Made by a program: the position numbers and the translations under genes. From NCBI GenBank assembly GCA_018828585.1, contig JAHJVW010000089.1, positions 1 to 64,000 on the forward strand: 64,000 nt of DNA, written 5' to 3'. Each line of letters begins with the position of its first letter. The first letter of the stretch is position 1. Of the stretch, positions 4,013 to 8,299 are shown in pieces. Source of the stretch: Bacteroidota bacterium (GTDB lineage Bacteria > Bacteroidota > Bacteroidia > Sphingobacteriales > Sphingobacteriaceae). The notes below the pieces were generated by a model that did not search any database, was not told the DNA's origin, and saw nothing but the letters and a program-made list of their open reading frames with translations.

Positions 4013-5374
4013 TTAAGCCATACTAAACAATTGCTCTTTAGGTTTCTCTTCGTGTAGTCTTGCATCAAAAGCTGAGCAGATATTTCTTAAAAACCGTTTT
4101 CCTTTTGGAGTAACTTTTAATTTATGATCAGTTTTGATAATTAAACCATCTTTTTCAAATTCATATAAACGGTGAAGGCTCTTTTTAAACTCGTGATGCA
4201 TCAAGTCTAACCTGTCCCAAGTTGTTTCTCCATGACACATGATTTTTAGGATATGTTTCCTCAAAATCAAATCACTTTCATTGAGTAAATGTCCCTTAAA
4301 AACAGGCAATTCTCCAGCATCAATCAGCTCTAAATATTCTTCTACTTTTTTTACATTTTGGGCAAAAGCTGTCCAGCTGTCACTGATAGATGAAACTCCT
4401 AAACCAATCATCAACTGCGTATATTGATGGGTATAACCCATAAAATTTCGGTGTAATTTTCTATCTTCTTGAGACTTGTATAAACTATCGCTTGGCAAAG
4501 CAAAATGATCCATCCCAATTTCCTGATATCCCGCTGCTATTAAGACACTCCTACCTAACTCATACAATTGTTGTTTTAATTCGTAATTGGGTAAATCCAA
4601 TTCGGTAAACATCCTTTGCCCTGGTTTAATCCATGGCACATGAGCATAATTATAGAAAGCGATACGATCGGGATTTAATAATTTTACTTTATCCAATGTA
4701 TCTAATAAGCCAGCTATATTTTGAAGTGGTAAGCCATAAATCAAATCATAATTAATGGATGTATATCCCAAATTACGGGCATTCTCTGTCACCTCTTTTA
4801 CCTCTTCAAAAGTTTGATGACGGTTGATAATCTGCTGAACTTTAGGATCAAAATCCTGAATTCCTAAGCTCAAACGTCTAAACCCTAATTCATATAAGGT
4901 TTCTAAATGCGCTTGGGTTGTATTAGCCGGATGAGCCTCGAAACTAAACTCTGCTTCGGGATGGATTTCACATCCTGATAAGATATTTGTAATTAATGAT
5001 TTTAAATTTTCTGGAGTAAAAAAGGTAGGTGTTCCACCTCCAAGGTGCAATTCTTTGATGATGGGTTTTTCGTGAAATAAATCCTCATACATCATCCATT
5101 CTTTTTCAATGGCTTTAATATAGGGCTCTTCTACCCCATGATTTTTTGTGATACGAGTATTGCATCCACAATAAGTACACAAACTCTCGCAATAGGGCAA
5201 GTGAATGTATATGCTAATGCCACTCTTTTGGTTACTTTGATTAAATGCCTGTTTAACTTCCTTTATCCATAAGGTTTTATTAAAGCTGTTGTTATCCCAA
5301 AAAGGAACTGTTGGGTAGCTGGTATATCTGGGAACTGGTACATTATATTTTTTGATGAGCGCAGAATTTTCCAT
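4013..5374 (-). CDS. hemN: Oxygen-independent coproporphyrinogen III oxidase
   Basis: 453 residues, as in E. coli HemN. A radical-SAM enzyme of cytoplasmic heme synthesis, it decarboxylates coproporphyrinogen III to protoporphyrinogen IX without oxygen. Cys62, Cys66 and Cys69 ligate the 4Fe-4S cluster and Cys71 completes the HemN-type CxxxCxxCxC motif. GGGTP (about 112-116) is the SAM glycine motif, and the N-terminal YNVPVPRYTSYP is the HemN signature that sets it apart from HemW. It follows the half-LDH gene by 30 bases and is probably co-transcribed with it from a promoter carrying an FNR-like site. Confidence 0.95.
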   Translation of the reverse strand: MENSALIKKYNVPVPRYTSYPTVPFWDNNSFNKTLWIKEVKQAFNQSNQKSGISIYIHLPYCESLCTYCGCNTRITKNHGVEEPYIKAIEKEWMMYEDLFHEKPIIKELHLGGGTPTFFTPENLKSLITNILSGCEIHPEAEFSFEAHPANTTQAHLETLYELGFRRLSLGIQDFDPKVQQIINRHQTFEEVKEVTENARNLGYTSINYDLIYGLPLQNIAGLLDTLDKVKLLNPDRIAFYNYAHVPWIKPGQRMFTELDLPNYELKQQLYELGRSVLIAAGYQEIGMDHFALPSDSLYKSQEDRKLHRNFMGYTHQYTQLMIGLGVSSISDSWTAFAQNVKKVEEYLELIDAGELPVFKGHLLNESDLILRKHILKIMCHGETTWDRLDLMHHEFKKSLHRLYEFEKDGLIIKTDHKLKVTPKGKRFLRNICSAFDARLHEEKPKEQLFSMA

Positions 5375-5404: not shown

Positions 5405-5809
5405 TTATTTTGATCGACAAGCATTTGCACAAACACAAGCTTTTCCGGCGCACTTATTTGCCTGCCAATTATCTAAATTTTTAATGGTTTGCATTGCGAT
5501 TTCTTGTGGACTTTCGTTGGATACGTTGGCCAGTTTAATACCTAAGATGCTGGCTTGTACTTTATCTATATGATCAGTGTCGTTTGAGCGATTGGTGATG
5601 TATTTTACATTTAGATTTTTAAGCTCATTAATTACATTTGCCGACAAATCGTCATTAACCGTAACAATTACAGCGTCTTTTCCTTCGGCAAACTGTACTG
5701 TTTGCAGATTTAAGGCATTAGATATTAAAGTAATATCATGCTTTTTTTGGTTTGCCTTGGCTATGAACTCTTTCTCAAATGACTGAGTGCTATAAACAAC
5801 TGCTTTCAT
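5405..5809 (-). CDS. Half-length D-lactate-dehydrogenase-like protein with cysteine tail
   Basis: 134 residues. Residues 1-113 follow the N-terminal catalytic/substrate domain of LdhA-type D-2-hydroxyacid dehydrogenases: MKxxVYST opening, VNDD near residue 50, LKxLxVKYI, then LGIKLANVxxxSPxxIA. The protein stops exactly where the NAD-binding Rossmann domain should begin. It ends instead in a short tail with four cysteines at 120, 125, 127 and 131. It therefore cannot be a dehydrogenase by itself. The tail may bind a metal or Fe-S cluster or form disulfides. It is first in the operon with hemN, behind a candidate FNR-type site. Function unknown. Confidence 0.8.
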   Translation of the reverse strand: MKAVVYSTQSFEKEFIAKANQKKHDITLISNALNLQTVQFAEGKDAVIVTVNDDLSANVINELKNLNVKYITNRSNDTDHIDKVQASILGIKLANVSNESPQEIAMQTIKNLDNWQANKCAGKACVCANACRSK

Positions 5810-5891: not shown

Positions 5892-5905
5892 ATGATTCTT
5901 ATCAA
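5892..5905. promoter_or_regulatory. FNR/CRP-type binding site (ATGAT-TCTT-ATCAA)
   Basis: Nine of ten consensus positions match TTGAT-N4-ATCAA. The site is embedded in a larger imperfect palindrome (TCTGAAAAA arms, 5884-5915). Its centre is about 65 bases upstream of the start inferred from the -7 box at 5840-5847, close to the class I activator position. The REC-CRP regulator encoded next door has the FNR-type recognition helix expected to read this half-site. Confidence 0.55.
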
Positions 5906-5940
5906 TTTTTCAGAAATGAGTTTTACAGCAAGGAGGTTAC

Positions 5941-6003
5941 TGTCACATTGAGCGGAGTCGAAATGTGCATTAATTAGAGACTTCAACTCCGCTCAGTCTG
6001 ACA
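5941..6003. repeat. Long REP-like inverted repeat
   Basis: Two 24-base arms (5941-5964 and 5980-6003), each containing TGAGCGGAGT, are inverted copies matching at 20 of 24 positions around a 15-base loop. No T run follows on either strand beyond what belongs to the neighbouring terminator. From memory, TGAGCGGAGTCGAA palindromes are scattered between genes in many Bacteroidota genomes; only this copy is seen here. Confidence 0.65.
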
Positions 6004-6034
6004 AAAAAAATGGCTTGTGAAAACACAAACCATT
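6003..6034 (-). terminator. Intrinsic terminator of the kinase/regulator operon
   Basis: On the minus strand AATGGTTTGTG and CACAAGCCATT pair (one mismatch) around TTTT and are followed by eight T. It lies 32 bases after the stop of the REC-CRP gene and separates that transcript from the half-LDH/hemN operon. Confidence 0.75.
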
Positions 6035-6065: not shown

Positions 6066-7112
6066 TTAGTTTTTCATTTTGGAAAGCTTTTCCTCATTAA
6101 TGAGCTGAATTTCGCTTCCCTTCTTTTCGATCAGTTTTTCTTCTTTAAAATCGCTGAGGGTTCGGCTTACTGTTTCGGTCGCCATTCCTGCCATGGCGGC
6201 AAGATCCTCTCTGGAAATTTTGAAATTGGATTTTTTATTAATTTCTTTTATTCGAATTAATGTTTCGGCTAATCTTTTCCTTACTGAGTGATAAGCCAGT
6301 TGAACCAATTGCTCGTCTTTAGTTTGTAAACTGGCAGACAATAATTGGATAAACTGCATGGCATGTGCTGGATACTTGTTCAAGATTTCATCAACCTGAT
6401 CTTTATGGAGCATGCAAATGCTGCTATCTTCCATTGCTTCAGCATTTTCGGTATGTACTCGACCAATTAATGCATCATGAATACCGAAGTACTCATCGGT
6501 TTGGTAAATTTCGGTTAAAAAATCCCTTCCATCTTCGCTTTGCTTACTGATTTTAATTTTACCGCTTAAAACTAAGTAAATGCCTTGCGTGGCATCCCCG
6601 TCGTAATAAATAATTTGTCCCTTTTTTACATTACGAATTTTCTTAAGTTCAACTAAGTCTTTTAAAGCATTAACTCCATCGTCTTTATTTCCAAAATCTG
6701 CTAATTGTTTAAGTCCTTTGGTATAAAAATCCTTTTGTTTATTCTTTTTATTCAGGCGGCTTTCTACAGCGTTTAATAATTCTATATCATCAAAAGGTTT
6801 GGTCAAGTAGTCATCCGCTCCCATTTCCATTCCTTTGCGCATATCTGCTCTTTCGGCCTTTGCTGTTAAAAATATAAAAGGGATAACAGCCGTATCCGGA
6901 TTTTTCTCTAGAAGATAGAGTACCCCGTAGCCATCCAATTCGGGCATCATGATATCACAAATGATTAAGGATGGTATTTCCTTTTGCGCCATTTCAACTC
7001 CAAATTTCCCATTACTGGCAACCATTACCTGATAGCCAGCTAAATCAAGAATTTCAGCGGTACTTTCTCTAATATCTTCGTTATCTTCAATAATTAAGAT
7101 TTTATCTTTCAT
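6066..7112 (-). CDS. REC-CRP/FNR fusion response regulator
   Basis: 348 residues. Residues 1-122 are a receiver domain with acidic pocket Glu9-Asp10, phospho-acceptor Asp53 (CDIMMPELDG) and conserved Lys in LTKPF. Residues about 150-260 are a cyclic-nucleotide-binding-like beta-roll, and about 275-340 a CRP-type winged helix. The recognition helix ATETVSRTL keeps the E-x-x-S-R pattern by which FNR reads TTGAT. FNR's own cysteine cluster is absent, so oxygen sensing must come from elsewhere, most likely phosphorylation by the kinase whose stop is two bases upstream. In effect it joins FixJ-like and FixK-like functions in one chain. Confidence 0.9.
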   Translation of the reverse strand: MKDKILIIEDNEDIRESTAEILDLAGYQVMVASNGKFGVEMAQKEIPSLIICDIMMPELDGYGVLYLLEKNPDTAVIPFIFLTAKAERADMRKGMEMGADDYLTKPFDDIELLNAVESRLNKKNKQKDFYTKGLKQLADFGNKDDGVNALKDLVELKKIRNVKKGQIIYYDGDATQGIYLVLSGKIKISKQSEDGRDFLTEIYQTDEYFGIHDALIGRVHTENAEAMEDSSICMLHKDQVDEILNKYPAHAMQFIQLLSASLQTKDEQLVQLAYHSVRKRLAETLIRIKEINKKSNFKISREDLAAMAGMATETVSRTLSDFKEEKLIEKKGSEIQLINEEKLSKMKN

Positions 7113-7114
7113 GT

Positions 7115-8299
7115 TTACAGTTTGAAAATCAATATAAATTTAGTGCCTTTATTTTCTGCACTTTCAAATTCAACCTCACCATTTAGTAGCTTCACATATC
7201 GGTCTACAATGTTAAGTCCCAAACCTGTCCCTGGTATATTCCCTGTGTTATGTGCTCTAAAAAATGCTTGAAAAAGATGCTTTTGCTCACTTAAAGGTAT
7301 TCCTATCCCATTGTCAGAAATGGTGATGAAACATTGTTCATCGGTAATCTCGGTATTAAATTCGATAAAGGTGTTCTCGCCTGAATATTTAATGGCATTC
7401 GAGATCAAATTGATAATGGAGTTTTTTAATAATCCAGCATCGGTATTAAACATACTATTTATACCGGTATGCTGATAAATGATATTTTGATTTTGCTTTG
7501 CCACCATTTGCATCTCCTCGGCAATTTCTTCGGCAAATTTAACCAAATGAATAGGACCAAATTGAGGTTCTATAATTCCAGTTTCTAATCTTTCTAGAGA
7601 AAGGAAATCGTTTAGGATGGTTGTTAAATTTCCTATGGCAATTTTAATCTTATTGACATGCTTACCTATATTAGGATTGTGATATTCTATAGAATACTTA
7701 TCAATTAAAGATACAGAAAGCTGTATAGAACTTAAAGGTGTCCGAAACTCATGTGATGCCATGGAAACAAAACGACTTTTTAATTGATTCAACTCCTTTT
7801 CTTTTTCCAGTGAAACGCTTACTTCTTCTTTAGCTTTTTGTAATTCTGATACGAGTGATTGAAGTCTTTCAGTACGGTCTTCGACTAACTGTTCCAATTT
7901 ATTGGTATATTCAATCAATTGGTCTTCGGCATTTTTTTCGCGAGTTAAGTCGTGGATGAATCCATTATATATAATCCTTCCTTCATATTGTACTTCGCTT
8001 ACCGCTAAACGGAATGGAAAAAGAGAACCATTCTTTTTCTTTCCTTTTACTTCTCTTCCCTTACCTATAATGTGTGGATCTCGTGTTTCTTGGTATCTAG
8101 AGATATACTGATCATGCTGTGAACGGTCAGGTTCGGGCATCAACATAGAAATATTTTCACCAATAACTTCTCTTTGCTGATATCCAAAAAGCCTACATCC
8201 CGAAGGATTGATGGATTCTATTATGCCTTTATCATCAATGGTAATGATTCCATCTATCGCGTTCTCTATAATAGCAGTTAAAAGTGCTGAATCATTCAT
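7115..8299 (-). CDS. FixL-like PAS sensor histidine kinase (probable heme oxygen sensor)
   Basis: 394 residues, no membrane segment. Residues 1-120 are a PAS domain close to FixL. By alignment to Bradyrhizobium FixL, His62 stands for proximal heme ligand His200, and Tyr65, Arg68, His76, Ile77 and Arg82 for Tyr203, Arg206, His214, Ile215 and Arg220. A coiled coil follows (about 122-175). The HisKA domain has phospho-acceptor His183 (ASHEFRTPL), and the C-terminal HATPase_c domain shows DNGIGI and GTGLGL boxes. It is first in a two-gene operon with the REC-CRP regulator and diverges from the yceI block. Heme binding is inferred from residues only. Confidence 0.9.
   Translation of the reverse strand: MNDSALLTAIIENAIDGIITIDDKGIIESINPSGCRLFGYQQREVIGENISMLMPEPDRSQHDQYISRYQETRDPHIIGKGREVKGKKKNGSLFPFRLAVSEVQYEGRIIYNGFIHDLTREKNAEDQLIEYTNKLEQLVEDRTERLQSLVSELQKAKEEVSVSLEKEKELNQLKSRFVSMASHEFRTPLSSIQLSVSLIDKYSIEYHNPNIGKHVNKIKIAIGNLTTILNDFLSLERLETGIIEPQFGPIHLVKFAEEIAEEMQMVAKQNQNIIYQHTGINSMFNTDAGLLKNSIINLISNAIKYSGENTFIEFNTEITDEQCFITISDNGIGIPLSEQKHLFQAFFRAHNTGNIPGTGLGLNIVDRYVKLLNGEVEFESAENKGTKFILIFKL

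Follow-up and report, generated by a model that had tools for sequence, protein, structure and literature searches.

The locus studied here raises the question of whether a sensor kinase and an adjoining fused regulator could control the high-affinity oxidase of aerobic Bacteroidota, a control that appears to be undescribed in the literature searched. The window, the whole stretch of 64,000 nucleotides that was analysed, carries a sensor histidine kinase of 394 amino acids (7115-8299, minus strand) and, on the same strand, a response regulator of 348 amino acids that joins a receiver to a CRP-type module and is called REC-CRP below (6066-7112). The REC-CRP start lies 2 bases past the kinase stop. 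The minus-strand run continues with a 134-amino-acid dehydrogenase-lobe protein (5405-5809) and with hemN (4013-5374), which encodes an oxygen-independent coproporphyrinogen III oxidase (TIGR00538, 444.6 bits against a cut-off of 324.95). In public annotation, for example that of a candidate pair from Runella, such proteins go under the bare names "response regulator" and "PAS domain-containing sensor histidine kinase". In literature outside subscription journals, we found no earlier description of a REC-CRP/FixL-type pair, of FixL-like kinases in Bacteroidetes or of cbb3 control in Bacteroidota.

The kinase consists of a PAS domain (Pfam, residues 7-117), a HisKA dimerisation and phosphoacceptor domain (residues 174-241; 7577-7780) with the predicted phosphorylation site His183 in the motif SHEFRTP (7751-7753), and a HATPase_c domain (residues 287-393; 7121-7441), all encoded on the minus strand. 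Because the PAS domain starts at residue 7, there is no space for an N-terminal membrane segment. The best PDB match of this domain is Bradyrhizobium FixL (1dp6, E 9.5e-34), gap-free over 123 residues; on the evidence of this match, the alignment and a tree, we class residues 7-119 (7943-8281, minus strand) as a FixL-type PAS domain. Six FixL heme-pocket residues were originally predicted to be kept, and in the gap-free alignment His62 (8114-8116), Tyr65, Arg68, His76, Ile77 and Arg82 do fall on the FixL letters HxxYxxR...HI....R, all identical. The letters and their spacing were computed; we take the corresponding FixL residues to be His200, Tyr203, Arg206, His214, Ile215 and Arg220. The Arg82 column is that of FixL's oxygen-stabilising Arg, and L98 is in register with the distal-pocket Leu of FixL. 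One refinement is needed. In an alignment of 21 close kinases (58-82% overall identity), Arg68 and His76 vary, often to Asn or Lys, and His62, Tyr65, Ile77, Arg82 and the phosphoacceptor His183 are invariant. The invariance of the four pocket residues is hard to explain without a role for heme.

Several gases can bind heme-PAS pockets, and with Arg68 and His76 differing among relatives, the pocket alone does not fix the ligand. The pair might then operate as proposed below with NO or CO as the heme ligand, or with a heme that reads redox state. We consider this improbable, since the window kinase has the complete FixL pocket, Arg82 included, and the linked genes encode a high-affinity oxygen oxidase and oxygen-independent heme synthesis. 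Nor is any nitric-oxide or nitrite reductase conspicuous among the annotated neighbours.

The regulator comprises, again on the minus strand, a Response_reg domain (Pfam, residues 5-117, E 1.8e-27; 6762-7100), a cNMP_binding domain (residues 160-247; 6372-6635) and HTH_Crp_2 (residues 279-345; 6078-6278). Its receiver retains E9/D10, D53 (6954-6956), T83 and K105, a complete response-regulator site in the alignment, and the phospho-Asp, acidic residue and Lys are invariant in 24 relatives. With a cNMP-binding fold and a Crp-type HTH, found by Pfam and in agreement with the AlphaFold model, it belongs to the CRP/FNR superfamily. The recognition helix, MATETVSRTLSDF, bears the E-x-x-S-R of FNR, and E, S and R are kept in 23 of the 24 family members. 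In the model (mean pLDDT 83.8, pTM 0.41) the receiver is complete, and a helical linker joins it to a CRP beta-roll, a long helix of the dimer type and the HTH; the relative placement of the two halves is uncertain. Its fold matches, among those listed, are CRP and FNR chains only, and no solved full-length REC-CRP structure occurs among the sequence or fold matches listed.

CRP contacts cAMP through E72, R82, S83, T127 and S128, and the corresponding columns of REC-CRP hold I, H, T, K and D. FNR senses oxygen itself by a 4Fe-4S cluster on four cysteines. In the alignment with FNR, the N-terminal cysteine cluster is absent from REC-CRP, which has only two cysteines, C52 and C233, of which C233 alone stands at an FNR cysteine position. 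As neither the cAMP-contact residues nor the FNR cysteine cluster is present, the receiver is the sole recognisable input of the protein. Both features claimed for it at the outset, a receiver with Asp53 joined to a CRP/FNR module and the lack of FNR's iron-sulfur cysteines in that module, are borne out, with C233 aligned to one FNR cysteine.

We then considered distribution. Among 151 genomes of the host's order, 137 encode REC-CRP (E 1e-40 or better). The neighbourhoods that were fetched and 80 named loci usually show the kinase first, then REC-CRP, the dehydrogenase-like gene and hemN, and a kinase adjoins REC-CRP in 69 of the 80. In several genera a ccoI-like P-type ATPase, with HMA and ATPase-cat_bd domains, comes after the block. 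The named loci are from Bacteroidota; we take the few MAG records with another label (L147, L150) to be misbinned. Chance is excluded, since most genomes of the order have kept the two proteins in the same arrangement. The third gene of the window's block encodes a D-lactate-dehydrogenase-like N-terminal lobe with a four-cysteine tail. In many relatives the slot holds a short protein limited to the N-terminal lobe of such an enzyme. Its end resembles IKNLDxWxxxKCVGKACxCxxxC, a motif with four cysteines, and the protein may be a derivative that binds a metal or a cluster; some relatives have a full-length dehydrogenase-like enzyme there.

The cbb3 oxidase gene ccoN (TIGR00780) was found in 124 of the 151 genomes, and its distribution follows that of REC-CRP: 123 of the 137 genomes with the regulator have ccoN versus 1 of the 14 without (Fisher p 1.3e-10, seven unlisted negatives being derived by subtraction from the list). 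The two genes lie within 20 kb of each other in 82 of the 120 genomes with both genes listed. Fourteen genomes have REC-CRP without ccoN; in several of them all REC-CRP copies are of a more distant kind. The negative genomes of the comparison are spread over several genera, so that joint loss has probably occurred more than once. In the single exception with ccoN and no REC-CRP (G041), a 237-amino-acid FNR-like protein is encoded beside ccoI (L180:10469-11182, minus strand). Its N-terminus, MSKKHDDAFSCKNCEFRDNSVFCG, bears cysteines in SCKNC and aligns with FNR through C-x-x-C, and TGAT-N4-ATCA sites precede both ccoI and ccoNO. To judge from the sequences, this genome reads as a case of one oxygen input replaced by another at the same operators.

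We initially noticed TGAT-N4-ATCA in relatives, where it precedes the dehydrogenase-hemN unit. Across 64 loci centred on REC-CRP, this palindrome has two peaks, 26 in the kilobase ahead of the kinase and 28 in that after REC-CRP, compared with 1 to 9 elsewhere; palindromes with permuted letters and versions with a spacer of 3, 5 or 6 gave much weaker peaks or none. The kinase promoter contains it in 24 of 67 loci versus 0.56 expected from dinucleotide-preserving shuffles (largest 3), and the region just after REC-CRP in 14 of 80 versus 0.52 (largest 3). When promoters were compared by Fisher test with the remaining genes in their neighbourhoods, the kinase gave p 2.8e-6, and the third gene and the cco genes gave weak results, because neighbouring promoters carry the motif too. 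Shuffles and positional bins were used in its place.

The window has a candidate operator, TTGATAAGAATCAT, at 5892-5905 (minus strand), a place enriched in relatives; its centre precedes the next gene (start 5809) by about 90 bases. The exact palindrome core is absent from the window's own kinase promoter. In the cbb3 cluster on contig 75 of the host genome, GTGATATCCATCAC precedes ccoNO by 84 bases, GTGATATCCATCAT stands before the ccoI unit and a weaker GTGAGATGTTTCAC before ccoG. A search of the window for the classical FNR box TTGAT-N4-ATCAA gave 16 one-mismatch matches versus 8.9 expected and is of no use alone. Between REC-CRP and the next gene (5936-6005) lies an inverted repeat of the type GTCACATTGAGCGGAGTCGAAATG ... 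CTTCAACTCCGCTCAGTCTGACA, which resembles a dispersed palindromic element.

Counted genome-wide, TGAT-N4-ATCA did not serve as a regulon signature, its excess being equally high in genomes without REC-CRP. Other factors may therefore also read the palindrome, and only positional evidence is used here. The same independence of REC-CRP lends some weight to a different assignment, in which REC-CRP would chiefly control its own operon, leaving the cbb3 sites to another Crp-family protein or a global regulator. The host genome does encode one other Crp protein with E-x-x-S-R (L096, EVISR). We think this assignment unlikely, as ccoN without REC-CRP is seen in only 1 of 14 genomes, where a cysteine-bearing FNR-like gene adjoins.

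Taken together, our results make it probable that the pair forms a two-component system that responds to oxygen and directly induces the cbb3 oxidase and oxygen-independent heme synthesis. We infer the heme, oxygen as its ligand, the sign of the response, phosphotransfer, DNA binding and activation; ligand and sign would carry over from FixL by analogy. In the proposed mechanism, the cytosolic kinase would bind heme b via His62, and oxygen bound to the heme would hold the kinase off. When oxygen falls, the kinase would autophosphorylate on His183 and pass the phosphate to Asp53 of REC-CRP. The CRP module of the phosphorylated regulator would then bind TGAT-N4-ATCA palindromes and directly activate low-oxygen genes. 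The targets would be hemN, the genes for the cbb3 oxidase and its assembly and, in many relatives, also the operon of kinase and regulator. REC-CRP alone would do the job of both FixJ and FixK. The residues H62, H183 and D53 and the operators are concrete points for tests. That a FixL-type sensor acts directly on the FNR-like regulator was the core of the original prediction, and independent comparative findings support it: synteny with hemN and, in several genera, ccoI, co-occurrence and shared loss with ccoN, the positional palindrome, and the loss of both CRP/FNR effector sites.

The nearest comparison is the FixL-FixJ-FixK cascade of Rhizobiales and Caulobacterales, in which oxygen-bound heme holds the kinase FixL off (PMC4999443). 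In rhizobia FixJ carries the receiver, and FixK, the Crp-type protein, is made in a later step (PMC4999443, PMC7888657). The window pair would share a FixL-type heme-PAS kinase at the top, as far as its residues tell, and at the bottom a Crp/Fnr protein without an Fe-S cluster that would use an FNR-type palindrome, with cbb3 and hemN-type genes as likely targets. It differs in having the receiver fused to the Crp module, with neither the NarL-type intermediate FixJ nor a transcriptional step. Moreover, the window kinase is soluble and has a transmitter that matches HK853-type chains, the phylum is Bacteroidota, and no link to nitrogen fixation was seen. Neither protein reaches the curated families: the kinase scores 159.9 bits against the NCBIfam FixL equivalog (NF041777, cut-off 850) and REC-CRP 73.2 bits against that of FixK (NF050806, cut-off 300). 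The description of the locus as a compressed FixL-FixJ-FixK circuit is thus fair for the function and does not extend to family membership or to descent from FixLJ-FixK.

In Rhizobium, hFixL acts through FxkR, which induces FixK, so that there too an oxygen-responsive FixL-like kinase feeds a FixK-type regulator of fixNOQP (PMC7888657, PMC4999443). In the window, by contrast, the Crp-type protein itself bears the receiver. FNR and Anr resemble REC-CRP in their CRP-type fold, the E-S-R recognition residues and a similar operator, and an FNR-like protein stands beside cbb3 in G041; unlike FNR, the window protein lacks the N-terminal three of the four cysteines. The job, though not the parts, is also analogous to that of NmpRSTU of Myxococcus xanthus, a heme-dependent kinase system that governs the cbb3 oxidase and hemN at low oxygen through a protoglobin sensor, a phosphorelay and an NtrC-type regulator (PMC11841059). 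If our reading is right, about nine in ten of the genomes sampled from the order have a Bacteroidota counterpart of FixLJ-FixK, in which the two-tier cascade is cut to one phosphorylation step and the delay of making FixK is removed.

The partner kinase is not the same throughout the phylum. In the PAS tree, a branch with 100/100 support (midpoint root, few columns) separates the FixL group from the PAS domains of the other kinases. The FixL group comprises 48 rows, including 4 alphaproteobacterial and 1 gammaproteobacterial, and the PAS of the window kinase groups with the proteobacterial FixL-type domains. Most partner kinases from outside Sphingobacteriaceae and Flavobacterium have the other PAS type, about 30% identical, in which the His is usually kept and Arg82 is often Met. 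These kinases, and one FixL-type relative without the His, would fit a PAS domain that is no longer a heme oxygen sensor, the kinase reading some other signal, such as respiratory flux or redox, and still driving cbb3 through REC-CRP. For the window kinase we regard this as a shade less probable even than a different heme ligand, given the four invariant pocket residues among its close relatives. An oxygen-sensing heme PAS remains our preferred reading, and a constant REC-CRP output appears, from sequence, to be coupled to two sensor classes. A phylum-wide scheme, for which we see about an even chance, would combine REC-CRP and one operator with interchangeable sensors: the FixL-type heme PAS in Sphingobacteriaceae and some Flavobacterium, the other PAS class elsewhere, and an FNR-like cysteine-bearing protein beside cbb3 where REC-CRP is missing. 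Such a natural sensor-swap series would bear on how kinases exchange inputs yet keep an output.

Some relatives of the two proteins depart from this arrangement. Five loci (L052, L069, L070, L071 and L081) hold REC-CRP paralogues without an adjoining FixL-type kinase, one of them beside a universal stress protein gene. In Dyadobacter sp. CECT 9623, a kinase of the FixL-type group beside REC-CRP has Gln in place of the heme-ligand His (L125:4815-6008, plus strand), a naturally occurring loss of that ligand. The host genome encodes on contig 19 a 603-amino-acid kinase (L063:3352-5163, minus strand) with a transmitter 61% identical to that of the window kinase and a different sensor part. It is preceded by GTGATAAATATCAC and might feed the same REC-CRP.
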